Position numbers and translations under genes: made by a program. A stretch of DNA of 64,000 nt from Isoetes taiwanensis (Eukaryota > Streptophyta > Lycopodiopsida > Isoetales > Isoetaceae). Numbering within the stretch: position 1 is the first letter of the stretch; every line of letters starts with the position of its first letter. Of the stretch, positions 8,977 through 30,700 are shown one piece after another. The stretch is from the NCBI GenBank assembly GCA_021234155.1, contig JAJEKV010000053.1, positions 8,935,798-8,999,797 of the forward strand. Reading direction: 5' to 3'. Below the pieces are notes generated by a model that was given only the letters and a program-made list of their open reading frames with translations, had not been told where the DNA came from and made no database searches.

Positions 8977-9089
8977 TTAACACAAAAAATATCAGAACAA
9001 CATATCAAATGCAAGGAAAATACTAAAAAAACAGACAAAAATGGTGCCATATTATAGAATTATTTGTCTTTTCTGGGACTTTTTGGAAG

Positions 9090-9992: not shown

Positions 9993-10329
9993 AGGCTGAA
10001 GACCGCAGCTTGGCGGAAGGACGCTGGCTGGGTTGCCAGCTGGGAGATCGACTGTTGGTATTTTATTGGAGGCCACATCATTTGAAATCATACCCGCCAA
10101 CTTCCAGACGCCAGTGCCTTCTCCTAACTGCCAGCACCCAGCGCCATTTGATCCAGCATCTTCCACTTGAAGTTTTTATTGGCTTGCTGATCTCCATATT
10201 CATTCTCTCTTTAACGCACAGAGTTCGAGGCAAAAACGAAGGCTACAAGAAATCCAACAGTCGGAGCCAGTGCCCATCAAGGCTCAAGTATGTTTTTTTT
10301 TGTTTTGATCTCAAGCTAGGCAGTTCTCG

Positions 10330-11100: not shown

Positions 11101-11366
11101 ATGCTGCATTTGAGTTTTGTAAACCAGTTAGACTATTCGTTCTATTTGCCTTATATGCATCCTTTGTTTTCAGTTGTCTTGGGTGCAGAAACAACATTCC
11201 AGTCTGAGTTCTGCTGAATGAACGGGCCTGGTGCATGGAGATAATGAGGATAAGCACTTCTGCTCCTTTGGGTTCAAAGGGTGACAGTAGAAGAGAGTTG
11301 TGCTTACTTACAACGGAGATGTCCGCCAACATCGAAGGAGTTTACTAGCCAGGCATTATCGTTAAT

Positions 11367-12902
11367 ATGAGGACAGCTCTCAAGAACGGGCGCGAGGACT
11401 GGCTCCGCGTAGTTGTTGAGAACACAGAGGACATAAAGATAAATATTTACTATGTGGACTGGCGGTTCTATGATCCCACAATGATGCCCGCAAGTATTTC
11501 CAATGTCAGTGGCTCGACAAGGATGGGCTCTTCTCTCTTACAAGAGCTTCCAAGAGGCAGACATACAAGGCCCTACCGAGATTTTAAGGGGATACAACAT
11601 TCTTCGGAATCGAATGAACGAGTCGAAGAACTCTCCTTATTTGGTTGTGAAGGCCTTGAACTTGCAGAACCCACCTCGCTTAGTGGACACCGCTTAGCTT
11701 CGAGCTCAGAAGAAAACGAAGACTTGTGATGTCAAAGGAGGTTCCTGCTACTGAGAAGGACTCTTCTGATACTAATGAAAAGGTTAAAAAGTCAGAAGCA
11801 AAAGCTACAGAAAAACATTAACAGGGAAAAGAAGGATAAGGAGGGAAAGGGAAGTAAGAAGGAAAGGGATGGAAAGGGAAGCAAGAAGGAGAAGAAGAGG
11901 GGAAGCAAGAAGGGAAGGATAAGGAGGGGAAGGGAAGCAAGAAGGAGAAGAAACGAAGAAAGGAAGAGAAGGGGAAGGAAGGTAGTGTAAAGAAGGAGCA
12001 GGAAGAAAAAGGAGAGGAGGAAGAAGAGAAGACCAAGAGAAAATATAGGCATGGCACATCAGATGTTGAGGGAACTCCAAAGAAACAAAGAAGACGATGC
12101 CCTCGACCTTCTAGTCCACAGTCTAGTCCTGCAATTCCTGTGGCCTCTCCACAGCGTGATGAGGCCACTAGCAGTGGTGGTGTCGGTGGTGGTGCCACTG
12201 CAAGCAAGGCAGAAAAGGGGGGTATCTTGGCACCACAAGTCTAGGGGTCCGCGCCATCTCAATTAATAAAACTGCGGATAGCCGCGCACTTGTTAGAGGT
12301 GCCCCAAGGCCTCAAGGTGGAAAGGTCCAAGGAGGAAAAGATGGCAGAAATGACATTGAATAAAATTTATGACCACCATCATCTTTTCCCTCTCGGTATT
12401 ACGTTTACAAAGAAAATAAACGTGTTCAGTTTATACCAGGGCCCTCCAAATTTGACTTCCAGGCCAAGAAATATGGAACACGTCAAGACTCTGCTGGAAT
12501 CTTTCTAGCGTGATCCTCACCCAGTGTTCACACCCGCGGATGTGGTTCCCTTTCACCCCAACACAAAGAAATTAGTTCCTTGGAAAATAGAGGACGATCT
12601 TATGGGATTGCACTTCTATATAGTGCATGGCAATCACTCGGTATTGGCAGCACAGCTTGTTTGCAGAAAGTTAGGCACTGCAAAGTCCCAGGAGCAAATG
12701 GCCAAAATATACGAGGGTGTTGTCAGGAGTGGTGAACGAGCAGGACTGCCTGCAGCTCAGTTGTGAGGTGAATGACATTGCTGTGAAGACCATCTTCAAA
12801 GAACCATTCATTGACAAGATTACCCACCTGAGGCATCAGTACGTACTTTGCGGCAGGCCTGATCCTTCGAGTCGTGGGCAGACGCGATCGGAACCTTATA
12901 AG
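11367..12902 (+). pseudogene. Decayed ParB-like gene, N-terminal part
   Basis: Plus-strand coding blocks: 11367-11470 (GREDWLRVVVENTED, then YYVDWRFYD, which looks like a small beta-barrel reader module), a Lys/Glu low-complexity linker (about 11775-12050), a Ser/Pro linker (12051-12240), and a ParB-like block at 12290-12770. The last includes RPRNMEHVKTLLESF, then VVPFHP, and FYIVHGNHSVLAAQLVCR, which corresponds to the ParB/sulfiredoxin 'D-G-x-H-R' box with Ser in place of Arg. The block order matches the intact-looking paralogue at 24.0-24.8 kb (YYVLGGTHSYKA). The exon ends at 12902 with donor GTATGA. There are several in-frame stops and frame changes, for example the stop just after LLESF at about 12506. 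Likely a dead or dying copy of the same gene family. Confidence 0.6.
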
Positions 12903-13215
12903 GTATGATATTTACATCATATGGCCCTACGGTGTCATTTTGAAATTTTGCTAGTTATTTTCATTTGTGTCTTGATAGGAAAATGGCGTCGTGGCACCAT
13001 TTCATGTGAAATGGCGCTGTGGCACCATTAAGACGCCATTTCACATCATTAAGGCGTCATTTCACATCAAATGGCGCCACGACGCCATTTCATAGGCGTT
13101 GTCTTGACTGTAGGTTTTCTTGGGTTCAACACATAATGAGTTTTAAATTTTACCATTGAAATGGCGCTGCGGCACCTTTTGCATTCCATTGCTAACAAGT
13201 GTCCTTTGCATTCAG
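12903..13215 (+). other. Intron of the ParB-like gene, loaded with palindromes
   Basis: GT-AG intron (AAG|GTATGA ... TTCAG|CGG) between the ParB-like block and the exon encoding MPEDIFQLFQSLWNQW. It contains palindrome cluster 1c. The paralogue at 24802-25161 has an intron at the corresponding place, also filled with palindromes of a different sequence. Confidence 0.65.
12978..13180. repeat. Palindrome cluster 1c (ATGGCGCCAT type), intronic
   Basis: Six or more related palindromes: AAATGGCGTCGTGGCACCAT (about 12980), AAATGGCGCTGTGGCACCAT (about 13009), AAGACGCCATTTCAC, AAGGCGTCATTTCAC, AAATGGCGCCACGACGCCAT (about 13069-13088) and AAATGGCGCTGCGGCACC (about 13160). TCACAT segments between them are repeated too. 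Confidence 0.85.
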
Positions 13216-14780
13216 CGGTACCTGGCTCTAGCAGAAGTTACCATGCGTGGTAAGCAGCCCAAAGACTTCAACTGGTGGGTCTTCATGCCAGAGGATATCT
13301 TTCAGCTGTTCCAGTCCCTATGGAACCAATGGAAGACTGGCAAACTCAAGGACAACAAAGGGTAGCCTATCGTCTGTGTCTAGGCCAAAGATAGTGACTA
13401 CTTCAGTCAGACTTATCTGTGGTGCCTCAGAGGCATGCACTATGAGGATTGCAGAGTCTTATTCCAGGAGGTGCTTGACAAGAAGGTATATGTTAAGGTC
13501 TCCACTGATTACACAGGTGACTACTTCTTCAAGACCACTCTCAAGGCATTAGCGTTCTTGAAGAAAGAAATTTTTTAGTATGTCAAGGAAAACTTCCCAA
13601 GGAAGTTCACCTCCTTTGAAGACTTCTGTTCCACTGTTCCAGGGTTTGACGATGACAGCTTAAAGGCCATAGGGACACTGCACAACAAATGGGTCAACGA
13701 TGGCATTTCCAAGAAGGGAATTTTTGGAAACATACCTCCATTCTTGATAAAGTTCTATAGAGGGATGACATTCAAGAGTTCCGCTACGAGGTTGAGCTCA
13801 CTGATAGCAGAGGGCAGATCAAATGCACTCCTGTGCCAGCCTCTTTGATTGTTCTGGATACACGAAGTCTAACTCCAATGTGGGACCAATCAACACTATC
13901 CAAGTTCTTTGACACTATCGTCAAGAACACGACTGCTGATTCTTTTTGGATAGTTTGCTTCGCACGCTCAGAACACAATTTTGTTGTCTCCTCAGTGTTG
14001 GATAACCTGGACTCTAGATACAGAGTTTATATTGGCATGTACGAGGATGAATACAAGAATCCAGCACCAACAGGGGTGCTGGAACTGCATGCTCTCGTCT
14101 ACGCCACCAAGATCCAGTCCTCTGCCCTGACTATTCTCGAAGAGATTGACCTCATGTTTTACTATGCCGATCACCCCCAGTATCTTCCACCACTTCCTGC
14201 TCAAACTGAAGAAGAGGTAGACGGGGAGAGTAAAGCTATGATAGAAAAACCCTTTCGCATCAGATTCAGATACAATTGGTAAGGCTTACCCAGAGAAATC
14301 ATAATGAGAAGTCAGTTAGGTCCTGCAACCTGTTCCTACCTCGTGCAGGAGCTGGTACAGCCAAGTACATGAGTGTTCGATTAATTCTCTTGTGGTGCTT
14401 TTGGCAGAGATGCATTGATTCACAAAAGGTTTTGCATCGTGTTTGAATATATCCAGCCAAACAACAGCGCCTGAAGGGGATTCTTGGCAGGCTAGACTAT
14501 GTGCTCAAACCTATCCTGGTTGTAGTCCCTGTGTCCCAGCAGCAAGGTTCTCTTCCACGTGGAGTTGAGGAACATGCGAAAACAAGACAAGCAGTGAAAT
14601 CACCTGAGATTGCTGATGTTGACTACGAGGTTATTAAAAAAGCTAAGTTCGACCTCGACAATCTCGATGAAGCTGACCTCACTGCCCATGCTTTTGATTT
14701 TGATCCCATCAACAGTGCCGGGCCATCTAATCCTATTGTTAGCACTGAGAAGCCTGAGACAGCAGAGAAAGACTTGTAAA
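13216..14780 (+). pseudogene. Decayed ParB-like gene, C-terminal part (methyltransferase-like region without clear motifs)
   Basis: Continues the 11.4-12.9 kb gene. Block 13216-13364 (MPEDIFQLFQSLWNQWKTGK) aligns in place with DLQERIFCMFEDGELKEQ of the paralogue. Blocks 13400-13790 (YVKENFPRKFTSFEDFC, then FDDDSLKAIGTLHNKW) and 13796-14282 (PASLIVLDTRSLTPMWD, then FFDTIVKNTTADSFWIVCF) correspond in order to the methyltransferase half. The catalytic DPPY-type box is not visible; LDTRSLT stands near where it should be. A donor TTG|GTAAGG lies at 14280. The final block 14480-14780 is an acidic tail (VIKKAKFDLDNLDEADL) ending at TAA. Several in-frame stops show decay. The relation to the paralogue is inferred from order and pattern, not from a strong alignment. 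Confidence 0.5.
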
Positions 14781-14895
14781 TTATGCGTATCTCAAATGTA
14801 AAAATAATATTTTTTTGTATATAAATTTATCGAGCTCATACTCTCTAAATGTCGATGGATATATTTTTAACTATAATTTCTGCACTGTCATGTTT

Positions 14896-14955
14896 TTAAT
14901 GGCGCCAAATAATGGCACTTCACATGCACGAATACACATAATGACGCCATAATAG
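14896..14955. repeat. Palindrome cluster 1d, 3' of the ParB-like gene
   Basis: Degenerate copies (TTAATGGCGCCAAATAATGG, AATGACGCCATAAT) in the 3' non-coding DNA, about 120 bp after the stop. This mirrors the palindromes at the 3' end of the paralogue (27.03-27.08 kb). Confidence 0.65.
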
Positions 14956-15041
14956 CTCAAAAATTGGTCATAAAACAGACTAAAAAAGAATTTCGTCCCT
15001 AATTGGAATCACGAAATTTCTCATTTTAATGAAATTGTGCT

Positions 15042-18030
15042 TAGGTGGTGTACAAACCTGGTAAATATAACCTGGTTGTAGATGCTCTTTCAAGGCACGC
15101 TTTGGTGACTCGCACGCATTGCAACGTCATTTCCACTCTCACCAATGAGTTTGAAAAGACCATTGCACAAATATTCCCTACAGACCCTGAATTCAGGGAG
15201 GTGTGGCACAATTTGTCTGAGGAGGCTCGGACGGAAAAGGAACGAGAAACTTTTCGCCATTTTAAGAAAGAAGGCAATCTCCTCTACCATCAGAATAAGT
15301 TATGTATCCCGAAGACCTCAGGCGTTTGGAAGCTCATCTTTCACGACACACATAACAGTCCTATAGCGGGACATGCTGGATCTATGAAAATATATTTTAA
15401 GGTATGATCCAGCTACTTGTGGCCCATTATGAAGAAGCACATTGCCGGCTATATCAAGCAGTGCCAGGTTTGCCAACAGACAACAACTGAACAGTTGCGC
15501 CTTCCAGGCGTTAGAGCCTTTAGAGGTGCCCCATGCTAAGTGGGAAATCATCACTATGGACTTCATTGTCGGTCTTCCACGGACCCTTAGGGGATTTGAT
15601 GCCTTGATGGTGGTGGTCGACAAGCTCTCCAAGATGGCGCACTTCTTGCCATGCTGCACCACTGATACGGCCTTGGATACGACACTGTTGTTTGCTAAGG
15701 AGATTTTTCGACTCCAGGGGATGCCATGCCAAATTATTTCGGATCGAGATGCCAAGTTTGTAAGTGCATTCTGGACAGATTTCTTTGGCACTATATAAAC
15801 CAAGCTTGCCATGAGTACCGCATACACCCCCAGACGGATGGTCAAACGGAATGCACCAACCGCATCATTGAAGATATGCTACGCAACTATGTCTGGAATA
15901 AGCAATCACAGTAGGCCGATTATATCCATTTGGTAGAATTTGCTTATAACAGTTCTAAATAGGAGTCTTCTCGAATGGCTCCTTTTATGATTAACTATGG
16001 CTATATATCAATGCCTAACTCCAGACACGTGGCATAACTCTGTTTCCAAGTTTGAGGTCTCTCAGTAGTTGCTCACAGATATGCAAGTTTTGGTTGAAGA
16101 GATCCGTGAATATTTGTTAGTGGCTTGAAGCAGGCAAAAGAGTGTTGCAGATAAGCATCACACACCTTGGGACTTTTAGGTTGGAGATTCTGTGTAGTTA
16201 AAGATCAAGGTAAAGCAAGCCAAGCTCAAGGTTGGCAATTGCAAGAAATTGGCACCCCGATGGGTGGGACCATTTGAGATTATTCAGAGGGTAGGGCCCC
16301 AAGCCTACAAGCTCAATCTCCGTGCTCATCTTAAAGTCCATAAGGGTTTTCATGTGAGCCTTCGAAAGAAGCATACTCCTGATCCAGAGGAAATATTAGA
16401 TATACCCATATTTCTTGAAACGACAGATGAGCAAATGGAAATAGTCCCAGAGGCTCTTCTTGATCGCGCGTAAGGACTCAAATCCTGCAGTATTTGGCTA
16501 AGTGGAAACACTTACCGACTGGGGATGCAACATGGGTACTAAAGATGGATCTTGATAAGAACTACCCAGGACTTTATGTAGGAATTCCAGGGATGCACCA
16601 TCAATGATGCTATCAATCTTGACACCAGTGGTAAGCAATGGAGGCTTGACCCAGCAGGGGTCATGCAGGGAACTGGTCGGGTAGATGCATTCTAGGTGGG
16701 ATAGGCATGTACATCATAGGACGCACTCATCCCGGCGATAATGGGAACATAGCCATTCCTTATGCCGCGATGACTTCCCAGATTTAGGCATGATAGGATA
16801 CCCTTCTTTTTCATTTATATTCAAAAGGGGGTGGTCCCTTCCATGGAAAAAATTAGCGGCTATTCTTAGCCAAATGGCGATTTTTTAGGGGGTCTAGGCA
16901 ATTTTTGCGGCGAATTTTATGAGGAGAGATTTTTAAAATAAAAAATAAAAAATAGCCATAGTTAAAATAAGTACTCCATTATTTTTTCAGGTTTAACCAA
17001 ACTATTTTTCCCCTTTTTCTTAATGAAAAAGGGATTAGCCTTTCTTTATATTACAATATTTATATACTAGATCATTAATAGGCAAATAAAATGAATTCTT
17101 ATTAAAGATTTTTACAGATCGTCACCTACCATCATTGGTAATAGTAGTTTTTCACAATCATGAATTTCTATTACATATACCACATATGTATCTTAAAAAA
17201 GGAGTTGTAAGAGACGCTAATATCCATTTAGATGCCCGAGTCAGTTGCATAACTTCCTTCAAGAGTTAGATATAAATGCAATTTGATCACCATATCTAGA
17301 AGGATGTTGTTGCATTGAATGTAGTTCAGACTATGGATGTTATAAGCTATGCTGTGAGCTTCTGTTAAAGTTTTTTAATATCATCGTATGTTCCTTGATT
17401 GTTGATTATTATTTGTAATTCTAGATGTCTAAAACTATAGAGACTACATTTTTTGCTTTTTCTAATAGAAAAGGTAATCAAGTGAAAGCTTAAAGGAATA
17501 CTTAATTCAAAAGTTTCGCCAAGTCCAAATACATATAAATGTAATGTTAATAATAACTTTAGCCAAATATATATCATAAAATACGGTAAGATTCTGAAAA
17601 ATAGCCAAACCATTTTTTATGAAAAAGTATATACTGTGCTTAATTTTTTCCCTGGTCCCTTCAACCACATTCTTTAATTATTATATGATGCACTGATGTA
17701 CTATAATTTTGCAGGCCAGTAGCGTGTACCAAGGGTCTGCAGTTTTCTATGATGGCACTGAGGGGCCATCCGTGTTTTTACATATATTTGTTTTGTCTAC
17801 ATATTGTGTTGTTACCACACGGTCCACTAAGAACCTGGTTGTGTTTCTCTCTATTATATCATGCCAGTGCATTGTGAACGGACTATGGTCCTGAACTTAT
17901 GTGATCTATGATCCTAATGTAATTTTCATTCTTTTATGCAGTATATGTTATCTTTTGACTTAATTAATTACTTTAATATTAATTCATTAACCCCAATGCC
18001 GAGGACAACATTATTTTAAGGGGGGTAGAA
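15042..18030 (+). mobile_element. Chromovirus (Ty3/gypsy) copy A, 3' internal part
   Basis: Starts abruptly at the end of the RNase H region (VDALSRHALVTRTHCN). It then shows the integrase zinc-binding and catalytic regions (15.3-15.9 kb), the integrase C-terminal region (16.2-16.4 kb) and a chromodomain-like segment (about 16.48-16.60 kb). A purine-rich tract (AAGGGGGGTAGA, about 18018-18029) precedes the 3' LTR. Gene order and many residues match copy B at 57.4-59.0 kb. Broken, with many breaks. The 5' half is absent: the element is cut at 15.04 kb by the ParB-like locus. Clearly older than copy B, from the greater divergence. Confidence 0.9.
16842..17653. mobile_element. 0.8-kb non-autonomous DNA-transposon-like insertion with 9-bp target duplication
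   Basis: AT-rich 812-bp segment inserted between the chromodomain and the 3' LTR of copy A. It is flanked by direct repeats GGTCCCTTC at 16833-16841 and 17654-17662. Copy B (59.22 kb) has a single uninterrupted GGTCCCTTC at the same place, which acts as the empty site. The ends form a short inverted repeat: GGAAAAAATTAGC at the left, and the complement of GCTTAATTTTTTCCC at the right. The 9-bp duplication and short AT-rich body suggest a Mutator-like MITE. No coding sequence. Confidence 0.8.
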
Positions 18031-19205
18031 TGTGACTTTCCATGTATTTATACAATAGATGTATAAATACCTTGACATGTCAGCAGCGTATTGGGACCAT
18101 TGGGGACTAACCTAAAGGGGTTTATTGCAATCAACTTAGTCTAATACGACTAAGTAATGGTATTAAATAGTAATGTAGGCTAACTAGACAGTGCCACATG
18201 GCCTAGTTCGATTGACCAAGAGGCAACTTACCATTTTGGGATGGCAAATTGGGCTCCCATCCTCAATTCTGCCCCAATTTGAACTTGGGGGGAAGATTGG
18301 GGAAGATAGGAGCTGCTACAACCCTGCAACCAGATCTGCACCATGAATGTTCTTCGTGATACTGGCTCCAGCCCGGATACCGGTTAGTTTCAGCATAGTT
18401 TGTGTTCTGCTAATCCTTGTTTGAGTAGATGAATGATTAGATTCTATTCTAAGATCTATTTGGGAATGATGATATATGCTTTGTATATGATTGCTCTCTC
18501 TTTCTGTTCCTCCTGTGTTATATTGGATTAAGGGGGGTAGAGATCTAAAGGCTATCTAGATTTAGTAATGATCCTAGCTAGAACCCCGTAAATCCCATTA
18601 AATGCGGCCTGTGCACAAGATCTTACCAGGCTGGGGATGCTATGCTGTGATTCAGCATCAGATAATGAGCATGATGGTGAAATGGAGGTGGAATTTTGCC
18701 TAGTTTGACTACAGGATTCTTAGAGTGTGTTAGGCTTATAATCGGTCACCGTGTAGGGTCGGGTATGGGTCTGACACCTCCTGGGTCGCAAGATACGTAC
18801 CTAAAGAGATGTCTTGGGCTCGATGGGTGCACCGTGGCGGCCTATGCATTGGGGGGTTAAGTCAGGTATGGATGCATGTTCACCAGTCGTGGCACAATCC
18901 TCTAGCCACCCATGGAACCAGAGTGAATTCATTTCCTCCCTGCTTCGTCGGACCGGGGAGATGTAACCCAGAGTAGTCTCATAGGGTGAATCCATGAGAT
19001 TGCATCTCCGGAAGGCTATAACCACGTCATAGCATGATTCAGCCTATCTGCAAAGTGTGCATAGGAGGGGCGGATAGAGTGGACTACCCTAGTCATTGTT
19101 CTATGCCAGCCAACACCATTGCCATTACCTTGTCTGTTGTTATCTGGAGGCCTTGCCAGTTAGTTGACACCGTGGAGTCTAAGCCCGGGAATTAAATCCT
19201 TTATT
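18031..19205 (+). mobile_element. Chromovirus copy A 3' LTR, first part
   Basis: Begins TGTGACTTTCCATG right after the purine tract and is collinear with the copy B LTR (48455-49690), though clearly more diverged. It breaks off at about 19200, where the inverted-repeat element begins. The rest of the LTR resumes at about 27457. Confidence 0.85.
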
Positions 19206-19224
19206 TGATACATTTGTCATATTT

Positions 19225-19315
19225 AACAAAGTTTAAATTGAAATGCACTTATTTGCTCCAAACGCACTTCAGAAGGAATCTTTGAAAGATTCCCTAAAAT
19301 TTCCTAAAAAAAGAC
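19225..19315. repeat. Left terminal inverted repeat of the 8.25-kb element
   Basis: GTTTAAATTGAAATGCACTT (19231-19250), then CGCACTTC and TTTGAAAGATTCC (19281-19293), then AAAAAAAGACC. The reverse complement of 27463-27388 gives, in the same order, GGTTTAAAACGAAACACACTT, AAGTGC, TTTGAAAGATTCC and AAAAAAGAGAC. The match is imperfect and includes small indels. Confidence 0.7.
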
Positions 19316-19637
19316 CATTTTGAAGGATTGTTCGTGACACGTGTGACAATTTAGGTAATTCAGGCACCCTTTTTGAGGGGTTGATTGAACATAGCTTCTA
19401 TGCAAAAATATTTAATAGCCACTTTCAGCCTCCTAATTTGGAACAAAAAATAGTTACTTTTATGAGGTGTAGCAAAAAGAAGGCAATGAAAAAAACTGCA
19501 AGGGTAGTAGAGTGATAAAGAAGTTATATATTCAGTGTTTGTGAAAATTTTACAAAATTATAAACAAAATTGTCAAAAATATAGCACATTTTGACAAAGC
19601 CTCATCACCTGCAATTTCTCTTGTTTACATGTTTGAG

Positions 19638-20672
19638 TCATCGGACGAACTTATATTTTGCAGCAATATCGGGATGCATGTCATCCTTAGACTCATTTAG
19701 TCCTTCATCAGTGGAGCCTTCATCCTCACCTTCACTCTCAAAACTGGATGTACTCGAACGATCTTCTTCCTCACTGTCTACAAGTGAGTCTTCATCATCA
19801 TCTTTTTTGGCCACCTTTCTAGGTTGTTTATGTAATCCGCATGCCGACCTTATTAAAGTTTGAGTGACCGCATGTAACTTATTAGCAGCAGTCAGAACAA
19901 AGTCATATGCAAGGATCCTTACTTCAGCCAGATCTAAGATACTAGTCTTTGCTTTAGACTTTGCTCTTCTTCCCACTCCTGTTTTTACCATCTCCAAACT
20001 ATAACTCCCACTGAAAGCATTGGTAGCGCTTGTTCTCATCCAGTGCACTTTTAATTGAGTGGGAATTCCATCCTCTCTTGTTACCTCCAATACTCTAGCC
20101 AGCCAAAATGGCTTCCCAGTCTCATCATCATCAGCTGGGACAGCAACAAGCGTTCCTTTTTGAATATCTGAGACAGAACCAGAAACCCGAGCAACTTGTT
20201 GTGCTGTGCGTCTGGGGCCAGTATACATGACTCTGTCATCTTCATCTGAGCTAGGCAGTAGCTGCACATGTTCTTCTTGATCCTCAACTTGCATAGGCAG
20301 AGTTTGCCTAGATGGCCAGTTGAATGCAATAGGTCTTCGATCTTGTGACATGGCTTGTAATAAGTCACGTTGCTGAGAAAAAAACTGAGGCCACCATGAA
20401 GCATCTGCCTCCCCAAAGTGATTAGAGCATGACTGAATACCGGACACAATGCAATCCAATGATTTTTTTGAGTCAAATGCTCTTTGTGACCTCTTTCAAG
20501 CTCTTAAGAGGCATTTGCTCTGCAGAGAGCATGGAAGTAGTCTCGGGTATGGTGCGAATAAATTGAATACCAGCTGCTGGCTGCCATTGCAAGGATGTGG
20601 CATATTTCTTTCCTTGAAGGATGGCCTTGCCATCTGCGAGTGAGAATTTGATCTGATGCTGAAATGTAATGT
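19638..20672 (-). CDS. C-terminal part of the element's minus-strand gene: acidic protein with chromo/tudor-like segment
   Basis: Follows the FCP1-like exon. An acceptor (ACATTTCAG) leads into HQIKFSLADGKAILQGKKYA and IQFIRTIPETTSMLSAEQM. After one apparent frame change near 20480 it continues to the stop at 19638 (about 270 residues). The central segment GTLVAVPADDDETGKPFWLA then RVLEV and LKVHWM looks like a small beta-barrel reader module, of a kind often found at the C-terminus of transposon proteins. The end is strongly acidic and Ser-rich (EDEGSTDEGLNESKDD). Function unknown. The continuous strand and close spacing suggest it is the last part of one gene starting at 23477. Confidence 0.5.
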
Positions 20673-20673
20673 T

Positions 20674-21424
20674 TCATAAGGGCTCAATTGCACATTGAGC
20701 CATCTGATCTCTCCGAAAAATCCATTCCTTGAAATCATAAATTTCTTTCAATATCTCGATTTCTGGGCGAGGATTGTAGCATTCTGCTCTAGTGTTATTC
20801 TTCAGTACAGCTAAAGTATCTTCCGCATGTGACACCTGTCTAAGTATTGGAAGCAAATAAACATCCAGAATTTCATCAGTTGGCTGACAGGTGAAAGTAG
20901 GCACCATGATGGAAGTAAATGGTGGGGACAGAAATGTCTTGTAAACCTCATCATCTGCAATAATTACATTTCTGCCATACTCAGGGAAAGCTGCATATAC
21001 CTTGTGGAGTGGCTTCATAAAAATAGGATTAGAAAACTCCAAAGGATACTTGAAAGGCATCTTATCGCAGAAACTCTGATCCCAAATGAATATGAACATG
21101 TCTTTCTGAGCAGGACATAAGACATTAAGCACTTTATGAACATTAAATTTGTTCATAGCTGACCAAATGGCTAAGTCATACCAGTAAGATGCTTCCTGCA
21201 AGAAAGCATGTACTCTCGGCCTGAAGACAACTACTTTGTTAGTTGTTGATGATTTTAGTAATTGAGGGCTTATCTTTTTAAGATCATCCCTCAATTGACT
21301 GCCTCTTCTAAACGTCTTCACGAGAACGCCATTAAGATCTAGAATCAGCAATCTCTTTTGCCTAATAACAATTGGCAGTGCAGTGGAACTTGAAGCTACA
21401 TTTACACTTTGTACCTCGGTGGAC
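20674..21424 (-). CDS. FCP1/NIF-like phosphatase domain exon of the element's minus-strand gene
   Basis: Begins after an acceptor at 21424/21425 (GAATGTTAG). The fold signature is that of the HAD-superfamily FCP1/NIF domain: RLLILDLNGVLVKTF (first catalytic Asp present), then VVVFRPRVHAFLQEA, then DLAIWSAMNKFNVHKVL, then IFIWDQSFC, then NVIIADDEVYKTFLSPPFTS. Canonical members have DxDx(T/V). Here the second Asp is Asn (D-L-N-G), as I recall for a plant subfamily, so activity is doubtful. A short upstream exon (about 21508-21568, donor at 21506) encoding VVQSDEDLNVSQLTS joins in phase. An FCP1-like domain inside a transposon-borne gene is unusual. The domain call is firm; the gene boundaries are not. 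Confidence 0.7.
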
Positions 21425-21506
21425 CTAACATTCACAACATTAATCAAGTGAATACACACCCAAATTCAAGTACAAATATTGAGATTAAATTAAAAAAGCA
21501 CAAGAC

Positions 21507-22300
21507 CTGGAAGTTAATTGGGAGACATTTAAATCCTCATCACTTTGGACTACTTTGTCACTCCCTATTTAAGAATTCAAATTAAACAACCAGGAATGAA
21601 TTATTCTGCTCAAGGGGATGTTGTTAATCCCCCTCATGGATTCAATCATTGCTGCAATTTTTGTACCTTTATCTTGTACAGATAGTGCTGCAGCTTGTAC
21701 ATTTGGTGCAGGTTCTAGTATTGGCTGCTCTTCATGAACTTCTTTTGAACTTTCAAATCCTGCACCTGCAATATCAGCAAGGGTTGAGTTTATGTTGTCC
21801 ATGACATTCTTCTCAACCTCTTCTTCATTGCCTTGCAAGTTCTGTTGCCCTGCATCATTCCCATCATTCTTTTGACCTCTCCCTCTCAAAGGATACTTTC
21901 TAGTAACCTTGGCTTTGGTCTGAACAGCTGCTTTGGCCTTGCCACCTCCTTTCTTCTTGCTAGTCTCTTCTTTATTCAATGTCTTCTTTTCCTTCCCTGT
22001 CTTCTTCACAACCACATCAGCTTTTTCTTCTTGATCTTGCTTCTGCTTCTTCCTGGTTGGAGTGTCTAAGACATACTCAATCTCCTCATCCGGCGACCTT
22101 TGTTTCTTCCCCGGAATTCTTCGCCACTTCTTAACTGCCTTGGGGTCACCTGTGCCTGAACAACATCTGGCTCAATATCAGAATCATCCCTGACATGTCT
22201 CAACCTTCTCTTCGTGCTAGTAGAAGGGGACTTCAATTGGTCAGATTGCACATCTACTACATCTTCAATTGCCCGACCTGTATTTGATCCCAAATCTGAT
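21507..22300 (-). CDS. Basic, Lys-rich linker of the element's minus-strand gene
   Basis: Between the RING-H2 part and the FCP1-like exon. It contains KKWRRIPGKKQRSPDEEI, then KKTGKEKKTLNKEETSKKKG and KVTRKYPLRGRGQKNDG, then an acidic segment (EEEVEKNVMDNINSTLAD). The composition fits a nuclear, DNA- or chromatin-binding linker. The frame changes near 22283 and again near 22145; splicing or indels could explain either. Confidence 0.45.
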
Positions 22301-23477
22301 TTCAAAACTTAATCTAGGATCAAAGGAAGCAACCCGCTCAATCGCAATGAGAATGCTCAAGCCAAGCTCAACATAAAGGTCTTCAGGAACTAGGCATTCA
22401 CATTTCAAACATTTGCCTTCTTTTAACAAGGCAGCACACATCACATGATATTCATGTGAGCAATCAAGAATTAAAGAAAGCTTGTACTTATCATGAAATC
22501 CCAAACCACAAGCATTACAAAAATTTTGTAAAAAACCTGGAAGATTTCTCTTGATGGTGTTGATGCAGAAAGTTGAATTCTTGATGTTTCCTAGACTGTC
22601 AAGGTTTTTTGCATATTCCTTGGCTGCCTTGATGTCACCATCCAGTTGAATTAGTTCTGCCTCCAAATTTCCCTTCTTCAAAATCAGATCTGGATCTCCA
22701 GGTCTGCATAATGACTCCATGGACTCTGCAGCATACTCCTCAAACATCAACTTTCTCTCCAACTCCTTGATTTCCTGTTCTACTTCCTGTGTCATGAACA
22801 GGCCCCTCTTTTCAACAAGCAATGATTTCAATTGTTCCATGTTGTGTCTTTTTTCGGTTAGCCTTTTAAAAATTTTGTCATTTGACTTTTCTTCAGCTGC
22901 CAGGCTAACAACTATATCCTGCATTTCTTTTTCCATCTGAGTTTTCTTGATCATAAGTTTTTCCAGATTCTCTGTCACTATCTGCAGATTCAGTTTCAAG
23001 TTTCTCTGATCAAGTTTATTACTTGCTACCTCTTTTGCTCGAAACTGAGGCTTTGAATCAATTTCTTGTTTCTCTTTAAAACCCTGAACTCTCGGCCTGC
23101 TAAGCCTGTAAACCATAACCTGTGCACCATATGCAGCCCAATTGATTTGATGGCCTTCAGGATCTTCAAGACCTTCTTCGCAATTTTCCCAGGCAAATGC
23201 AAGGGCAAATTGCTTTCTGACTTCATTGTTTGAGACCCCATCTGGATAAAGAATCCTTAACAAACTGTCCAATTTGGCCTTCAAATGTGGCTGAATAGCA
23301 GCAACTTTAGTGCCAGCCTTCGACTTCGCATTGAAGGGTTCTTGCCAAACTGATTCCCACTGTTCTTGTGTAACATTATTTGCCAGCCAATTGAATCTAC
23401 TCTGAGGCTGCAAACCATGGTTTGAAAGGCCGTGTATCCTTTCGAAATCCTCTGCTATAACTGCCTCCTCTACCATT
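22265..23477 (-). CDS. Coiled-coil RING-H2 protein, N-terminal part of the element's minus-strand gene
   Basis: The chosen start is the ATG at 23477 (MVEEAVIAEDFERIHG). An in-frame ATG 113 bp upstream would add a hydrophobic stretch and is less likely. Residues about 15-150 form an unrecognised helical domain (FNWLANNVTQEQWESVWQEP). Residues about 180-330 are coiled coil (LNLQIVTENLEKLMIKKTQ, then EVEQEIKELERKLMFEEYA). A RING-H2 finger follows: CNAC, then CSHEYHVMC, then CLKC, giving the C-x2-C ... C-x-H-x2-H-x2-C ... C-x2-C ligand order typical of ubiquitin E3 ligases. It faces the methyltransferase gene, with about 270 bp between start regions, so a shared bidirectional promoter is likely. 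E3 activity is inferred from the ligand pattern only. Confidence 0.65.
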
Positions 23478-23745
23478 GTAATCGATTCACAAATGTAAAT
23501 TCCGGATAATTGATCTATGATGTGAGCGGGATGGAAGAAAAACAGAGCAAAAGAAACACAAATTGGGATCAAAAAAAAGGAAGGTGCCAAAAAGCTAGGT
23601 GCGCGCGGGAACCGAGGTCGAGATTGTGGGAGGTATAACTACGGGTTGCTAAGTGCTTGGAAGTGCTTTAGGTGCTAAGTGCTTTCGCGTTGTTTTGGGT
23701 AGCATTACCATATTTACACCCTAACATGGTGGTACGTGCACAGGG
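23478..23745. promoter_or_regulatory. Divergent intergenic region of the two element genes
   Basis: Short spacer between the minus-strand start (23477) and the first plus-strand coding block (about 23746). It contains repeats of GTGCTTTAGGTGCTAAGTGC type (AAGTGCTT at about 23650-23685). A bidirectional promoter is inferred from gene orientation; no TATA box is clear. Confidence 0.4.
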
Positions 23746-26700
23746 GTGCTAGGGAATGCTACCCCACTGATGCATACCTGTACCTTTGCAACAAGACAGG
23801 AAGGGGAAAGTTCAAGGCTGAGGACTACTACCCAGTCTGACGTCCACATAGTAGACATTCTATCCTCAGGCATTCTTTGTGACGAGAAGGTTATTGTGAA
23901 GGGCCTCTGGCACCCACGGTCAAAGGAAGAGGTGGAAAAAGACATTGAGTAAGAAGAGGAGGAGGAGGAGGAGGAAGAGGAAGAGGAAGTTGTAGTCAAA
24001 GGGAAGGGGAAGAGGAAAGCTTTGGTCGTTCACACACAGGCGCCAAAGAAATCAAGGAAGACCAAAGCATTGACCATTGAAGAGTCAGCAGAAGCACTAC
24101 AAAAGGCACCAGGGGCCGACATTGTCTTGAGACCCTCGGACAAGTCAAGTGCTATTCTTAAACGTGTTAATGAAACAAAGCTCCTAAAGCAAACAATCTC
24201 CTTATCTCTAAGCACTATCAAGAGGCCGCCAAAAAATGAAGACGGGGTCAGAGTGCTTCAAGTATGGAAGTTGTACGCAGCACATGTGGCCATATTAAAG
24301 CAAAGAATGCCCAGAAATCCACATGCCCATGTGTCTCCTCTGGTTGTCATGGTTGACAGAGAACAGGTCCAAGAGCTCAGGGATTACAGGAAGGCTGACT
24401 TTGAGGACTATACATATTACGTTCTCGGTGGAACACACAGTTACAAGGCCAGGAAGGAATTGTCTAAGGAGGAAAGCAGAAATGAGGTCTGGAAGAGCGT
24501 GGAAGCCCATATTTATATTGGGTTGACAGACAAAGAGGCCAAAGTCATTGCCGTGAGCCACAACCTGGACAATGACTTTAGGTTGAAGATGAGCCTCATA
24601 GATAAAATCCGCTTCATGCACAGAGAATACGTTGAGTTCAAGCAGTTGCATGGAGAAGACTTCAAGAAGCAAAACAAGCTCCAAGAACTGCGGGAGGCTT
24701 GTGTGACAGAATGTTGTTTAAGTTACGACTCAGATAAGAAGCCCATAATGGCGGTAAAGCAATACGACAACTACTTTCAACTTGCTTTCAGAGATGGCCA
24801 AGTAAGTATTTCCTCCTTCCTGTTTAAGTTTGTTACAAGGCATAGCAGAATGTGTGCATTAAATGCAGTCCCGTCCTCGGAACAGTGTAAATTTATACCG
24901 CGTCTTGGAGCGGTATAAATTTATACCGAGCAATGCCACGGTATAAATTTATACCAGGCCATGTCACTGTGTAAGTTCACACCGTTCTAAAATGCGGACG
25001 GTTAGAACCTCGGCCCTCTACGGTATAAATTTATACCGTTGCTTGGAAGCGGTCAAGAACGGGATAAATTTATACCGTGGCCTCGACTGGCTAGAATTAA
25101 TTGTTTCACAACTGGCCTTAGGCATTAAGCTGCTGCATTAACGGTCCTCAATTTTCAACAGGTGTGGGATCTGCAGGAAAGAATCTTCTGCATGTTTGAA
25201 GATGGCGAACTTAAAGAGCAAGCCAGCAGCGCTGGTAAAAAACCAAAAAACGTTTCTGAGATAAAACAAAAAAATATGAGCATAGTGCCATGGACACAAC
25301 TACAGGGCTTAAAGAGCAAAGAAATATTTGTGCGGCTCCTGGAAAAAGTTGTTGCCAAAGAATTTACACTCGACGAAATGGCTAAGGAAGCTAAGACGTA
25401 AGGAGATTTTACTATGCACTGTACTCAATCCATGTCTTTGCCTAACAATCTCTTCTTGTTTGCAGTCAGAAGGACATTGTCACATGCCAGTCGGAGTTAA
25501 TGAAGCAACTAAATTTAGAAGACTGGGAGGAGTGCAAGCTTCTTTATCCCACATGTACAACAGACAATATAATACGAGAACATGTTGTGAACTTTAGTGG
25601 CTGGGTGAGTTTGTTAGATTACGTGTTTTGCTTTTGTGCCTCTGCCTTACTCTTTTCTTAAAGAACAAGAAGAAAGCTCTGCCAGCAGGCTTCTTGAATC
25701 TGGTTCGGAGGGCCAAAGAGGAAAGGCAAAGATTAAAGGCCATCGAACAGGGCAAGCAAGTCGCTGAAAGCAGTTCTGAGGGTGGCTACGAGAGATTTAC
25801 AACCTATGGCCAGGACTGCTTGTACAAGGTTGTACATGGGAACTGCACTAAACTAGGGATACTGTTGGATAAGCAGAACTTTACGTTGTGCATAGCCGAC
25901 ATTCCCTACGGGTTTAAGATCAAGGACAGTGTTTTTGATGATGAAGCCTTCACTCATGTACAAGTAAGAGCCTTTTTGAATGGTCTGAAGGACGTCACCT
26001 TGTCGACAAATTGGAGGGTCATAGTCTTTCATTCCGACCTACAAACGATGTCTGTGTTAAAGCCTGTCTCAGCGGTCTGCAATGTCGAATTTGAAAACTG
26101 CATCTGGTAAGCCTCGCAGTCGCTTGTGTTTCATAATTTGCAAAAGATCATGCTGCACATATTTGCGGAGGCCTTGCTGTACACATTTATACGGCAGGAG
26201 CAATGGGGTATAATTTCATACCATGGTAGCCCCGCGGTATAAATTTATACCAACCAGAAGCCCTGCTGTATAAATTCATGCAGCAGTCCACCTGTCGTAT
26301 AAATTTATACCATTTTGCTCATTACTTTCGACTTATCTTTTCTTTCTGTTCTAGGCTGAAGACAAACGTTAAAGGTCATGGTGGTGGTCCACGGTTAGTC
26401 AGCTGCTTCGAACACTTTCACATAGGCTACTACAGCGCTGACACCAAGAAGACCATGGTGCACTTTAACACTCAAGGTGACAAGACCCCACCATGCAATG
26501 CATTCCAATTCCCTACCATCTTACAGAAGCTGAGAGACCCGCAGAGCAAGGCGCTGTGGTGTCTCACTATTAGAAACCCCAGAGGTTAATTAACAATCTG
26601 ATACAATGGTTTTCACGCCTTGGGGACTGGGTTTTGGATGCTTTTTCTGGAACTGGCACCACAGCTATATGCGCTCTTAAGAAGGGGCGTAATGTGGTGT

Positions 26701-27032
26701 CAGTTGACATTGACCTGGACAAAATCAGTTTCATCAGGACACGAATAAGTTCCTATGAGTCCTTTCCTGATGAAAATGAGGAATTAGGCACAAAAAATGG
26801 TGCTGGGGATGTCAAAGGCACCTACACTGAAATCCAGCCTCCTATAATAGGAAGAAAAGACGAGGAGGTGGAGTTTGTAGACCTCGAACCAGTGGAGCTA
26901 GAGCCCCCTCAGCAGCCAGTTCCAGTACCATTAGAATCAAAAGCAGGTATCTCAGGCTTCGTGGCATCACAAGAAACAGAACAAAAGGGAGATGAGAGCC
27001 CTGTGGACTGGGAGGAACCTCCCCCCGTATAA
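23746..27032 (+). CDS. ParB-like / beta-class DNA amino-methyltransferase fusion, five exons
   Basis: Exons about 23746-24801, 25162-25397, 25466-25604, 25664-26106 and 26355-27032 join in phase through four GT-AG introns; total about 850 codons. Order: N-terminal block, acidic run (about 23950-23990), basic linker, ParB-like segment (HVSPLVVMVDREQVQELRDY, then YYVLGGTHSYKARKEL, matching the ParB 'G-x-H-R..A' box with Ser for Arg), helical middle, then the methyltransferase. Motif IV is DIPYG (25898-25912), with Ile where DPPY has its first Pro. Motif I is DAFSGTGTT (26637-26663), preceded by WFSRLGDWVL and followed by KKGRNVVSVDIDLDKI. Motif IV before motif I defines the beta class. ParB-like plus N6/N4-methyltransferase is a common prokaryote and phage architecture. 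Damage: one in-frame TAA at about 23950 and a one-base frame change at about 26586. The tail is acidic and Pro-rich. Confidence 0.75.
24802..25161 (+). other. Intron 1 of the methyltransferase gene, palindrome-rich
   Basis: Donor GTAAGT and acceptor TTCAACAG join GGCCAA to GTGTGG, keeping the frame (FRDGQ|VWDLQ). It carries palindrome cluster 2a. Confidence 0.85.
24883..25080. repeat. Palindrome cluster 2a (GGTATAAATTTATACC type)
   Basis: Six copies in about 200 bp. 24911-24928 and 25021-25038 are perfect 18-base palindromes CGGTATAAATTTATACCG. Others are near 24885, 24940, 24967 (diverged) and 25060. Spacers are unrelated in sequence and about 10-60 bp long. Confidence 0.95.
26107..26354 (+). 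other. Intron 4 of the methyltransferase gene, palindrome-rich
   Basis: Donor GTAAGC after ATCTG, acceptor TTCTAG before GCTGAAG, phase kept (CIW|LKTN). It lies between motif IV and motif I. It carries palindrome cluster 2b. Confidence 0.85.
26175..26312. repeat. Palindrome cluster 2b (GGTATAAATTTATACC type)
   Basis: Five copies: a perfect 16-mer at 26236-26251, a near-perfect copy at 26296-26311, and diverged copies near 26177, 26196 and 26265. The last has changed symmetrically to TGTATAAATTCATGCA. Confidence 0.9.
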
Positions 27033-27082
27033 ATTTATATCGACAGGTTTCAATTTTAAAATGTCGGTATAGATTTATACGA
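27026..27082. repeat. Palindrome cluster 2c, overlapping the methyltransferase stop codon
   Basis: CGTATAAATTTATATCG (27026-27042) contains the TAA stop (27030-27032). A second copy, CGGTATAGATTTATACG, follows at 27064-27080. This is the only copy that touches the reading frame. Confidence 0.9.
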
Positions 27083-27387
27083 GAAACTCTTATATTTATG
27101 TCCTCTAATATTGCATAAATGCCCTTTGTATTGTATTATAATCTCACTAAGAAATTTGAAATGGAATCTATTATTCTGTCTCTAGCAATGTCTAATTAGA
27201 GCAACTACCACTTTTTTTCTACATACTTTATTCTTTTGTTTTCGTAAATTGCACTTTAAAGGCCTTGCAAATTATGGTACAAAATGACACACCTCCTCAA
27301 ATTTTTTTTTTTCGTCACATTTCTATAAAAGTGCTATTTTTTATGGGGTTTTTTGAACACTTTCTTGCTCCCTATTTTGTCTCTTTT
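27083..27387. other. 3' non-coding DNA of the element
   Basis: AT-rich, no coding blocks. It leads into the right inverted repeat. Confidence 0.6.
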
Positions 27388-27463
27388 TTGAATTTTTCAA
27401 AATTTTCAAAGGAATCTTTCAAATGCACTTCTTGAATAAGTGTGTTTCGTTTTAAACCTTGTT
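27388..27463. repeat. Right terminal inverted repeat of the 8.25-kb element
   Basis: GGAATCTTTCAAATGCACTT (27411-27430) then AATAAGTGTGTTTCGTTTTA, read as reverse complement, parallels the left repeat. It abuts resumed LTR sequence. Confidence 0.7.
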
Positions 27464-27733
27464 ATTCATCTCTGTTGCGAGGAGATGTACTATTGATGGT
27501 TGGGCCCCCTTCGCGGTGGCGTATTATTTTATGTATGGTGTGCCAGGTGCTAACTTGTATTTATGCTTCTGCTATATAGGATTCCCATAGAAGGCGTGGG
27601 ACGAATGACACCTCCGTGTCCTTTCCCCGGGCATTTGGCCATCCCAGGTGGCCCGAGGTAGACAGAGTTGCCATGGAAAGGGGATTTCCCGTATCTATAC
27701 GATGGGAGCATCGTATACTCGGGGAGCATCACA
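27457..27733 (+). mobile_element. Chromovirus copy A 3' LTR, second part
   Basis: Collinear with copy B LTR positions about 49703-50017, through the GGATTCCCATAGA...GACACCTCCGTG block, and ending GGGAGCATCACA, the same LTR terminus as copy B. Together with 18031-19205 it makes one LTR split by the 8.25-kb element. Confidence 0.85.
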
Positions 27734-30700
27734 ACGATTGCTTCCCTCGCATCTTATTTTTTGTTGGAGGATTTGAGCTACTTCCCACTGCATGCATGTC
27801 CGATGGGTATAATAACTGGCCAACACATAAAAGTACACGTGCAACCAGTTAGAATTTATATTCGACCTTCTGGGAGTTGTACTCAATTAGAATTTATACC
27901 CATCTCCTTTCCATATATTTGTACTCTCTACTTTTGTCTTGCATATGTGGTTGGATGGTTTGGCTCTAGTGGACAGTTTCTCCACTGAGTTTTTAGTCCT
28001 CCATGTATTCTTTCCATTCTTTAAATCAATAAAGCTCCACGTTCATCAGAAAACAAAATAAACAAGGTGCTGCGCACAGAGGGTTGCCATCCGGTGCCTC
28101 GAGGGTGTGTTTGCATATTCTTTAATGCATAATGCTCCAAACTAAAAATAAATTTAATAAGGTCTTGCACAATTTTATAGCCTTCAAGTCTATCAAATGT
28201 TAAGACATAGACTTTCTATGATTTTGACATTTGCAAGAACAACCACCATCATTTATATTTTATTTATATTTATAACGTATGTTCCTTTGTACGTCCATAA
28301 CATTGATGAGAAAAAGTTAGGTAGTCAACCATTTAAACAAGATTCCACACTTATCTAGATTTTAGTCATACCAAGATGCATTGTAAAAATCAGAAGAATT
28401 CAGACAAGGTGTGCATATGAAGCACATGATTTTTTGCTAAATGCTGCACATACAAGTTAAAATGTTTCCATTAGTTTAAACTATACAAAAGGGGTTAAAT
28501 AGTGAGAAGAAACAAATGGCAATTCTCAATGGCCTTTTATGGAAACATTCACACTTTATAAACGCTTTGCAAGGAGGGAGCATTGAATGATATAATTTGA
28601 AAAGAATAGCATGAAGTTCCATTCCAAGTATAGATGAGAGACATATAATGTCAATCTAACATGTTTTATTTGCATCCGTTGGCATTGTTACCACAAAATT
28701 TAGAGGTAATTGGCATTGTTACCATAAAATTTGGAGGTAAATGTTTGTTCTTACATAAGGAGGATCTGTAGTGACACATGACACATGCATCAAACCCTGT
28801 TTGGGAGCATTATTTGTTCTTGTCCATGGCAAACTAAATAATATGGGTAACTTCCTCAAGTTTAAAAAAAGGCGTAAGGTTACATTTTGTGCTTGAACAA
28901 AATGTACAAAATTTGCATTCTTTACAAAAATTTTACAAGGGGAAGTGTCACAACTTTATATACAGTATCACAAGTTTGGTTGGAGATACGGAAGGCCGAG
29001 AAACTCAAAAACTTCGTATTCTATTTTGCATGGAACACCCGTGATCTCTCATTGGCTTCCCCTTTCGAACCAATATGGTCATCTTCAGTTTTAATCAAAT
29101 CATGCTAAGCCTTTTGAAAAATAATGTAGAATGAGTTAAACTTATGACCGGCTGCATCATGGGTGAAGGGACATAGTCCGTGATCATCAAGCTTGTATCC
29201 ATTTGATTCGACCATTAGTCTTAGCCTGAAAAGAATCGAAAGGCAAGCATAAGCGTAATGGTTACATTTTCGTGAATCAATAACCTTTCCTAGTTGTTAC
29301 TATAGCTGCACAGGCAAGCTTTTTATCAGTAGGACTTCAACATGACATAGCTCCTATTTAGGTAGTTGCATCTGAGACAATGCAAGTTATGTATCCAATA
29401 AGTGCACCACTCCATAGAAAAATAATAGATAGAATACTTTACCTCATTCCTTGGTATTTTTCTTCATGTCATCGGGATAAAGTATCCCCAACCTCTGACT
29501 CTCGGTTAATGTATTGTCACGAAGTAAGTCCTATGGCCTTTGTCGTAAAACTTTTGTGCAATAAATCATCCTTTTAATTAATCGCACGAGGTGGGTGAAC
29601 AAGAATTCCTTAGCATATAACACAGCAAGTTCTCCCTCTTTGTACTGACTATTTATGCATATCCACAAAAGGAAGTCTTGAATATGTAAATTGATTCACT
29701 GTCTGTCTAAATCTAAACTATATTGTTCTTTGAATTCACCTAGCATTTTTCTTTTTGTGAAGTCTGCTTCCTTGGGCCATGTCGGTTTCAATTGACTGCA
29801 TACCTAAGGCGATTTCCTACCATACAGAATTGAGAAGAAAAATGGAACATTTTCAGATGCTCCAATCTAGAAAGCTTGCCAGTCTCAAGTATTTCCTGAA
29901 TCTGCCAAGCCAATATCATTATAAGAGGCTTGATTTAACTTTTTTAACATGTAAGTTCTAACATATGATGTCAGAATAAGACACTTGTATTCATAAAAGG
30001 AAGCAATATTCAGCAATATTGCAAATGCTTTACCTGGTTTTGCAATGATTTTCCAAAGAGGCATCCTGCTGGATTCCGTGCGCTGCCATGAGATGAAACA
30101 ATTTTCAACTCAAAACAAGTGCCCTGTGACATAGCCTTTGAAAAGATTCAATATGCAAGTACATCTTCAGTGCCTTTGCGGTAAGATGCAATGCCTTTGC
30201 AATGTGCGTGCACCTTCTTTGGTGCTTGCTTCGAGTCTTCAAAACTAGTGGGGATTTAGATAAGATCTTCAAAACCATACCATGGGAGGGTCCCACTTCC
30301 AGAAATTCAAAGAAGAACTTTGTATTTACATATCTAAGTCATTTATTGAAAACCAATAGATCTAGCTTAATCAAGATTGAAAAACGCAAGGGTATAAGAT
30401 TAGGCGCCACGCTTTATATGATGCAAATGCCGGAATCAGAACAACAATTGATATTTAGCAATTTAGAAATATTCATCCAATATTGATAACATAATTCCGC
30501 ACAATAAGAAGATATGCCACCACAATATGAAAATGGGTGCGATGATTCCAACCAAGGATATCGGTAGATAACTTCGATGGAGTACCTAGCTTGCAAGCAA
30601 ATAAGTCCGGAGTTTGATATCCAAAGGTTTCTAACAGGTACCGGATAAAAGAAAAAGCAGAGAAAAAGAAAAGTTTACCAATATCTAAAAGTTAAGACTG

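Follow-up and report, generated by a model that had tools for sequence, protein, structure and literature searches.

Transposon Copy and Insertion Site

We analyzed a 64,000-nucleotide stretch of the Isoetes taiwanensis genome (contig JAJEKV010000053.1; hereafter the window, in whose coordinates positions are given) which hosts a mobile unit encoding a ParB-like/DNA methyltransferase protein and bearing arrays of a short palindrome. The unit is a decayed member of a plant DNA transposon family that is present in many copies and duplicates 4 bp of its target site. The insertion has the following features:

18496–19224, plus strand: left part of the split long terminal repeat (LTR), 75% identity up to 19189
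19221–19224, plus strand: left target-site copy ATTT (right copy ATTC at 27464–27467, three of four bases equal)
19225–27463, no strand: DNA transposon copy of 8239 bp, AACAAAG...CCTTGTT, a decayed derivative, delimited by its end repeats and by ends common to genomic copies
19225–19315, plus strand: left terminal inverted repeat, from end-to-end comparison
27379–27463, minus strand: right terminal inverted repeat, from the same comparison
27464–28050, plus strand: right part of the split LTR, 73% identity over 27548–27733 and 70% from 27498

The host of the insertion is an LTR of an old Ty3-type retrotransposon, for which the name chromovirus comes from an initial annotation of this DNA. Homology to repeated segments at 48.8–50.6 and 60.2–62.0 kb ends at 19189 and restarts at 27498–27548, in agreement with the split LTR described in that initial annotation. 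The imperfect terminal inverted repeats which that annotation reported were also recovered, with the inverted match of the ends (19224–19315 with 27464–27379) scoring 44; none of 292 random pairs scored above 29, the highest value among them. The proposed 8.25-kb unit is thus real, but its borders, first placed at 19206 and 27456, were off by 19 and 7 bases, judging from the ends of genomic copies. An odd palindrome, GGAATCTTTGAAAGATTCC, lies inside the left terminal repeat at 19275–19293, and the right repeat contains one half of the same sequence.

The initial annotation had made its reading depend on other genomic copies sharing the end repeats, and many were found. A search of the 1.66-Gb assembly with positions 19206–19500 gave 1229 first-look candidates, 40 of which were scored; all 40 left-end matches have E<1e-99 and 89–100% identity, and 33 start at query base 16–21, i.e., at the element end. 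Inside the window, no further copies of the element ends scored above the shuffled level. We fetched the best 12 of the 39 left-end matches, the window copy itself excluded (loci L023–L034), and both ends could be read in six of these and in the window copy. The 4-bp duplication is exact in four of these seven copies (L023 TTGA, L026 ATGA, L027 AATA, and L029 CGTT), while three of four bases agree in two (the window, ATTT/ATTC, and L024, TACG/TACT) and two of four in one (L030, TATG/TACT). A target-site duplication of TA or TTAA was considered, and dropped for 4 bp after this flank comparison. Since L024 shares its flanks with L030, and L032 with L033, these are duplicated loci rather than separate insertions. 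Together, the ends common to many copies and the four exact duplications demonstrate mobility, and the view that a mobile element carries the ParB-like/methyltransferase gene stands.

The ParB-Like/Methyltransferase Gene

23770–27032, plus strand: ParB-like/DNA methyltransferase gene, exons 23770–24801, 25162–25397, 25466–25604, 25664–26106, and 26355–27032
24310–24735, plus strand: ParB-like domain with a GGTHSYKA box, limits given by the envelope of a 12-member phage profile

The four introns of this gene (360, 68, 59, and 248 nt) have GT-AG borders and preserve the reading frame, as the initial annotation had it; the window gene itself is broken, having a TAA at 23950–23952 and losing its frame near 26.57 kb. 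Its C-terminal part matches N6_N4_Mtase (PF01555; E 1e-11, 45.7 bits with a cut-off of 26.7) and contains the FxGxG of motif I within VLDAFSGTGTT. Motif IV reads ADIPYG where the consensus is (D/N/S)PP(Y/F), and a UPF0020 match (E 0.0026) falls below its cut-off. At E≤0.01, the C-terminal piece has matches to five PDB sequences (MboIIA, CcrM, RsrI twice, and a putative methylase). As in the beta-class enzymes MboIIA, RsrI, and CcrM, the KP..L and VLDAFSGTGTT region aligns and motif IV precedes motif I; unlike them, the protein has DIPY as motif IV, a ParB-like fusion, and a gene with plant introns. The protein also matches 746 phage records at E≤1; among the 30 matches listed, the best E is 5e-5 and the longest span covers residues 479–755. 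By homology, the plus-strand gene is predicted to encode a beta-class N6/N4 DNA methyltransferase.

The N-terminal part was compared with a profile of 12 phage domains, from a family reached via one phage match to exon 1 at E 3 and annotated as ParB-like in many records. Exon 1 ranks first among the 517 open reading frames (ORFs) of the window (E 3.6e-4; next 1.2). Because exon 1 itself led to this family, the match is not independent; with the seed sequence removed from the profile, exon 1 still scores 15.1 bits (E 5.7e-4), and the best of 1000 shuffles, 751 of which were reported, reaches 9.1. The GGTHSYKA box presumably occupies the place of the GERR-type box of ParB proteins. A match of the exon 1 region to DUF6551 (E 0.018) is below the Pfam cut-off, and a pattern scan of IMG/VR found no relatives of exon 1. 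Three results count against a ParB-like assignment: Pfam ParB_N (PF02195) has no match to 24301–24801 at E≤10 (with filters that drop most matches above 0.1), exon 1 goes unmatched by a profile built from three distant phage sequences of the GH(T/G)R type, on which shuffles score higher, and the structure model of exon 1 has a predicted local distance difference test score (pLDDT) of 36.5 and was not used. Of the bacterial-type ParB-methyltransferase fusion first proposed, the methyltransferase half matches its Pfam profile at E 1e-11, and the ParB half, missed by Pfam ParB_N, is found through the custom profile at E 3.6e-4. A ParB-like domain preceding the methyltransferase is moderately supported by this sequence comparison.

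The gene is present in nine of the 12 fetched loci (L023–L031) and was not found in L032, L033, and L034 (20, 10, and 20 kb examined). The ratio of nonsynonymous to synonymous substitution rates (dN/dS), taken over up to 639 codons from pieces of exons 1, 4, and 5 in the window and these nine copies, was computable in 30 of 45 pairs (15 being saturated at synonymous sites), with a median of 0.15 and a range of 0.03–0.80. For the window and L029, the proportions of nonsynonymous and synonymous differences are 0.079 and 0.692. The highest value, 0.80, belongs to the L024–L030 pair, which serves as a neutral yardstick because its shared flanks mark one insertion, duplicated. As dN/dS is mostly far below 1, the protein was under purifying selection during the spread of the family.

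A DUF7869 Gene in Typical Copies and a Chimeric Gene in the Window

20785–23730, minus strand: segment without nucleotide match in the copies, replacing the DUF7869 region; it contains the coiled-coil/cysteine-histidine part, which begins near 23476, and the greater part of NIF/FCP1
19638–20784, minus strand: C-terminal part that the minus-strand gene has in common with the family (PFWLARVLEV region), at least partly present in all 12 copies by tblastn

The second gene of the window copy can be read across several frames only, owing to breaks or unseen introns. The initial annotation saw in it coiled coils, RING-H2, and an FCP1/NIF-like domain. The last holds (PF03031; E 5e-17, 62.4 bits with a cut-off of 21.8), with the catalytic DxDx(T/V) motif absent, since DLNGVL aligns with DLDETL of CTDNEP1; RING fails at 11.5 against 27.3 bits, and the FPP coiled-coil match is below its cut-off (21.4 against 40 bits). 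A scan of further ORFs of the element gave no family match. The segment at 20785–23730 has no nucleotide match (at least 60 bp, E 1e-10) in any of the 12 fetched copies over their first 10 kb, and most other copies share no more of the FCP1 ORF than its last ~36 residues. The minus-strand gene is thus chimeric, combining a replaced RING-like/FCP1 segment with the 3' part proper to the family. Protein relatives of the RING part occur in two of the 12 loci (L028 and L031; 26–36% identical by tblastn). At L028 5956–8415 and L031 1732–4713 (oriented coordinates), diverged RING/FCP1-like pieces, 26–40% identical, lie inside or beside the copies, like a separate repeated gene.

Typical copies have a DUF7869 gene in this place. 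Profile matches are strong in the two ORFs scanned (L023, E 1.8e-20; L030, E 2.3e-21), and tblastn places DUF7869 within 10 kb in seven of the 12 loci, L024 and L030 having a second match beyond the element. DUF7869 genes were noted in L023, L024, L025, and L027–L031 and at a second locus of the window. In the full-length copies L023, L024, and L030, DUF7869 and the shared C-terminal part are on the same strand. DUF7869 has, by eye, a D...D...D-type spacing and is probably a transposase. The typical family member has two divergent genes, DUF7869 and the ParB-like/beta-class methyltransferase, and in the window copy the DUF7869 region has been replaced by the RING-like/FCP1 segment joined to the shared C-terminal part. 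RING/FCP1 is consequently not the usual second gene of the family, and the reported lack of a recognizable recombinase applies to the window copy and not to the family; the idea of an element family lacking any recombinase was dropped once DUF7869 was found in typical copies. Sola elements make 4-bp target-site duplications, as found here; DUF7869 is tied to no superfamily here, and no paper in the literature searched names it. A pattern scan of IMG/VR found no relatives of the FCP1 and DUF7869 pieces.

Palindrome Arrays in the Non-Coding Parts of the Element

24884–25076, no strand: array in intron 1, five GGTATAAATTTATACC copies with up to four mismatches and a sixth (24968) with five; also kept in other copies
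26178–26311, no strand: array in intron 4, five GGTATAAATTTATACC copies with up to four mismatches; also kept in other copies
27026–27081, no strand: two GGTATAAATTTATACC palindromes at the stop codon and in the 3' untranslated region, from the window scan

The palindrome arrays, together with a second ParB-like gene, are additions to what had been annotated in this DNA. With up to two mismatches, GGTATAAATTTATACC occurs 10 times in the window, where 0.02 occurrences are expected; with up to four, all 12 copies fall in the ParB-like/methyltransferase gene (five in intron 1, five in intron 4, and two at the 3' end), and with up to five the counts are 13 inside the gene and 26 in the remainder of the window. 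The midpoints of all 13 gene copies, including the one with five mismatches, are non-coding, a class making up 24% of the gene, and no core lies in a window exon. The ParB-bearing loci L023–L031 hold 21, 30, 22, 29, 25, 20, 26, 26, and 39 palindromes with up to three mismatches (one in L023 being outside the element, and those of L031 belonging to a second, inverted copy further on). They occupy introns 1 and 4, the 3' end, and the stretch between the two genes. None was found in the 20, 10, and 20 kb of L032, L033, and L034, the loci in which no ParB gene was found. Six copies with both ends bounded (60,808 bp) contain 134 palindromes with up to two mismatches, and their flanks (29,192 bp) contain none.

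The ten window cores were aligned with six copies using MAFFT and scored for identity to the window copy. Core identity is 0.76–0.94 in intron 1 and 0.79–0.93 in intron 4, compared with 0.44–0.91 and 0.45–0.87 for the rest of these introns, and the core exceeds the rest in all 12 intron comparisons, figures that an aligner's tendency to pair core with core will inflate, a point that weighs against them. The cores are nonetheless plainly still present in diverged copies, such as L026 (0.93 against 0.44 in intron 1, 0.84 against 0.45 in intron 4) and L029 (0.76 against 0.48 and 0.85 against 0.49). The L026 element (3442–11977, oriented) is a diverged subfamily copy with the same palindrome and an exon 1 protein 57% identical.

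As an unbiased control, we counted exact palindromes of 14 bases occurring in the window (10 sequences, with those made of two letters excluded). Clusters per 2 kb with up to two mismatches reach 10 in array 1 and 9 and 8 in a second array, array 2, and the next value is 2; the 12-base set (18 sequences) gives 7 and 6, both in array 2, with a next value of 1 and at most 3 in ten second-order Markov controls. Only two palindrome families cluster in the window, both at ParB-like genes. The same procedure returns GGTATAAATTTATACC as the top cluster in L024, L026, L029, and L031 (14–20), and top values of 1 and 3 in L032 and L034. In IMG/VR, the paired GGTATAAATTTATACC pattern has no match, and an 18-mer has one single match (L014), which is taken as chance.

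A Second ParB-Like Locus With Its Own Palindrome

6547–8849, minus strand: DUF7869 gene beside locus 2, a probable transposase (DUF7869 E 4.4e-24)
9091–13180, no strand: palindrome array 2, 15 copies of AAATGGCGCCATGGCGCCATTT with up to four mismatches, at 9091–9394 (5), 10334–11091 (7), and 12981–13090 (3)
11200–14780, plus strand: locus 2, a second, decayed ParB-like gene with a GNHSVLAAQL box near 12.63 kb, from comparison of its ParB piece with gene 1, the gene at 23770–27032

Locus 2 was first flagged as the second match of the ParB-like profile, which at E 1.2 is not significant alone. Its ParB piece scores 60 against gene 1, a score that none of 300 shuffles reach (maximum 50). In the DUF7869 gene, an HTH_23 match is below threshold (E 0.011, 16.0 against 24.6 bits). 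No copy of AAATGGCGCCATGGCGCCATTT with up to four mismatches occurs in 30 Markov controls, all 20 copies with up to seven lie inside 8900–15050, and two further copies with five are at 10604 and 13159. The sites fall upstream of the locus 2 gene and between its exons, one seven-mismatch match possibly falling in an exon. Identity is 0.78 in the cores and 0.28–0.32 in the flanks, the copies having been picked by core. The same gene pair, DUF7869 and ParB-like, therefore accompanies an unrelated palindrome here, and locus 2 may represent a second family carrying its own palindrome. No terminal inverted repeats were found for locus 2, no retrotransposon parts were found upstream of it, and a 22-mer of array 2 has no match in IMG/VR. 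Nested inverted repeats with 43–53-nt arms and 86–92% complementarity lie inside array 2 at 10517–11002, and a tandem array of ~30-nt units bearing GGGCGGGC (9859–9989) adjoins it.

Possible Self-Recognition by the Element

The persistence of a palindrome amid changed surroundings suggests that the element recognizes and marks its own DNA. As a whole, we consider it somewhat probable that the copy in the window, now decayed, belongs to a DUF7869 and ParB-like/methyltransferase transposon family whose ParB-like/methyltransferase protein recognizes these palindromes. The ParB-like part would find them as a dimer, in the introns, at the 3' end, and in the intergenic region of the element, and the methyltransferase part would methylate the element there, N6-adenine being a more likely product than N4-cytosine because the palindrome core is A/T. 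We infer that such methylation could mark the element as self and so protect it, or its genes, from silencing. Several observations weigh against this explanation: motif IV is DIPY and not (D/N/S)PPY; the copies are decayed, with 0–10 stops per copy within the compared codons; the methyltransferase half of locus 2 is seen by eye only, scoring 24 against a shuffle mean of 28.5, with no profile match; and the co-occurrence of palindromes and ParB gene in the copies partly reflects a contrast of whole with truncated ones.

The main alternative, which we regard as unlikely, is that the palindromes are conserved sites of a host transcription factor or of the transposase, either of which could keep the cores, while the ParB-like/methyltransferase protein does something else. 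The cores are conserved, the core includes a TATA-like sequence, transposases presumably often bind internal repeats, and DUF7869 is present at both loci too; yet both palindrome families of the window sit at ParB-like genes, and palindromes would best suit a dimer of the ParB type. An improbable account of the arrays is that slippage or template switching spread them as neutral palindromic minisatellites, which non-coding DNA tolerates. Their spacing is partly regular (~28–32 nt) and array 2 contains the 43–53-nt inverted duplications, but the most diverged copies keep their cores at 76–93% where other intron sequence is at 44–49%, and spacers within the window copy are unrelated to each other. 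That the intronic palindromes work at the RNA level, through hairpins that serve splicing or give small RNAs, is very improbable: perfect palindromes are able to pair, but in the window complementarity is kept in only two of 20 changed pairs in array 1 and four of 48 in array 2, and many palindromes lie upstream of or between genes. Least probable is that the gene is passive cargo of a Pack-type capture, for although the window copy did acquire the RING/FCP1 segment, and Ectocarpus elements without transposase have been likened to Pack-MULEs (PMC12477816), the gene is in nine of 12 fetched loci and its mostly low dN/dS largely refutes this.

For self-recognition by the ParB-like/methyltransferase protein, the closest precedent is algal. 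The combination was new to the initial annotation, but ParB-methyltransferase genes on transposons are known from Ectocarpus, with green and red algae also cited, and the authors describing Sola1-1_Ec32 propose that the protein binds and modifies its own transposon (PMC12477816). As in Sola1-1_Ec32, ParB-like and N4/N6 methyltransferase parts form one protein, on a DNA transposon and opposite the transposase; here the host is a plant, the elements are 8–9 kb, and the partner is DUF7869, the likeness to the algal proteins being by description only (PMC12477816). Conserved private palindrome arrays are present here, and the parts of PMC12477816 available to us mention none for Sola1-1_Ec32. The conserved private palindrome, a putative target of the element's protein, looks new, and ParB-methyltransferases on transposons are already published; among the matches listed, no paper covers a land-plant ParB-methyltransferase transposon or its palindromes, most subscription journals lying outside the searched literature.

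By analogy only, the layout resembles that of VANC and the VANDAL elements of Arabidopsis, in which VANC recognizes short motifs that are specific to the family and gather in the introns and remaining non-coding sequence of the transposon encoding VANC (PMC5735166). In the text of that source available to us, VANC is not described as a methyltransferase, causes methylation loss, and has a non-palindromic motif, YAGTATTAY (PMC5735166). Our best reading of the palindrome system, by this analogy, is family-private self-recognition with a VANC-like layout. VirB is not known to have a methyltransferase domain. It is described as a ParB relative that acts as an anti-silencer at specific sites, but it is bacterial (PMC10770331; PMC10653881). 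TET/JBP-bearing fungal transposons likewise carry a DNA-modifying enzyme, with other chemistry, enzyme, and host, and the word ParB is absent from the accessible text of their description (PMC12730594).

More generally, and tentatively, plant DNA transposons may carry family-specific self-recognition cassettes of a bacterial-type ParB-like/adenine methyltransferase and a private, selectively kept palindrome array, placed in introns, untranslated regions, and the DNA between genes; on this array the protein would load, spread, write N6-methyladenine, and hold off host silencing, with palindrome and protein co-diverging between families; we hold this to be possible rather than probable. The published proposal that transposon ParB-methyltransferases bind and modify their own element gains a concrete target, kept amid sequence turnover. 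If correct, this would be a plant self-marking system assembled from components of bacterial segregation and modification, and one could then test whether adenine marks directed to particular sites function in plants, in a field where N6-methyladenine in eukaryotes is described as having been controversial (PMC12695648).

Other Features of the Window

A BELL-type homeobox gene lies at 39787–43532, with a POX match at E 9e-14 and a homeobox piece just below its cut-off (22.4 against 24 bits), and marks the window as plant DNA. A tyrosine recombinase fragment at 1935–2411 matches Phage_integrase at E 2e-4, its 21.5 bits falling short of the cut-off of 27.1. A retrotransposon copy occupies 48804–62836, with long repeats 96% identical and an extra partial repeat at 62202–62836.

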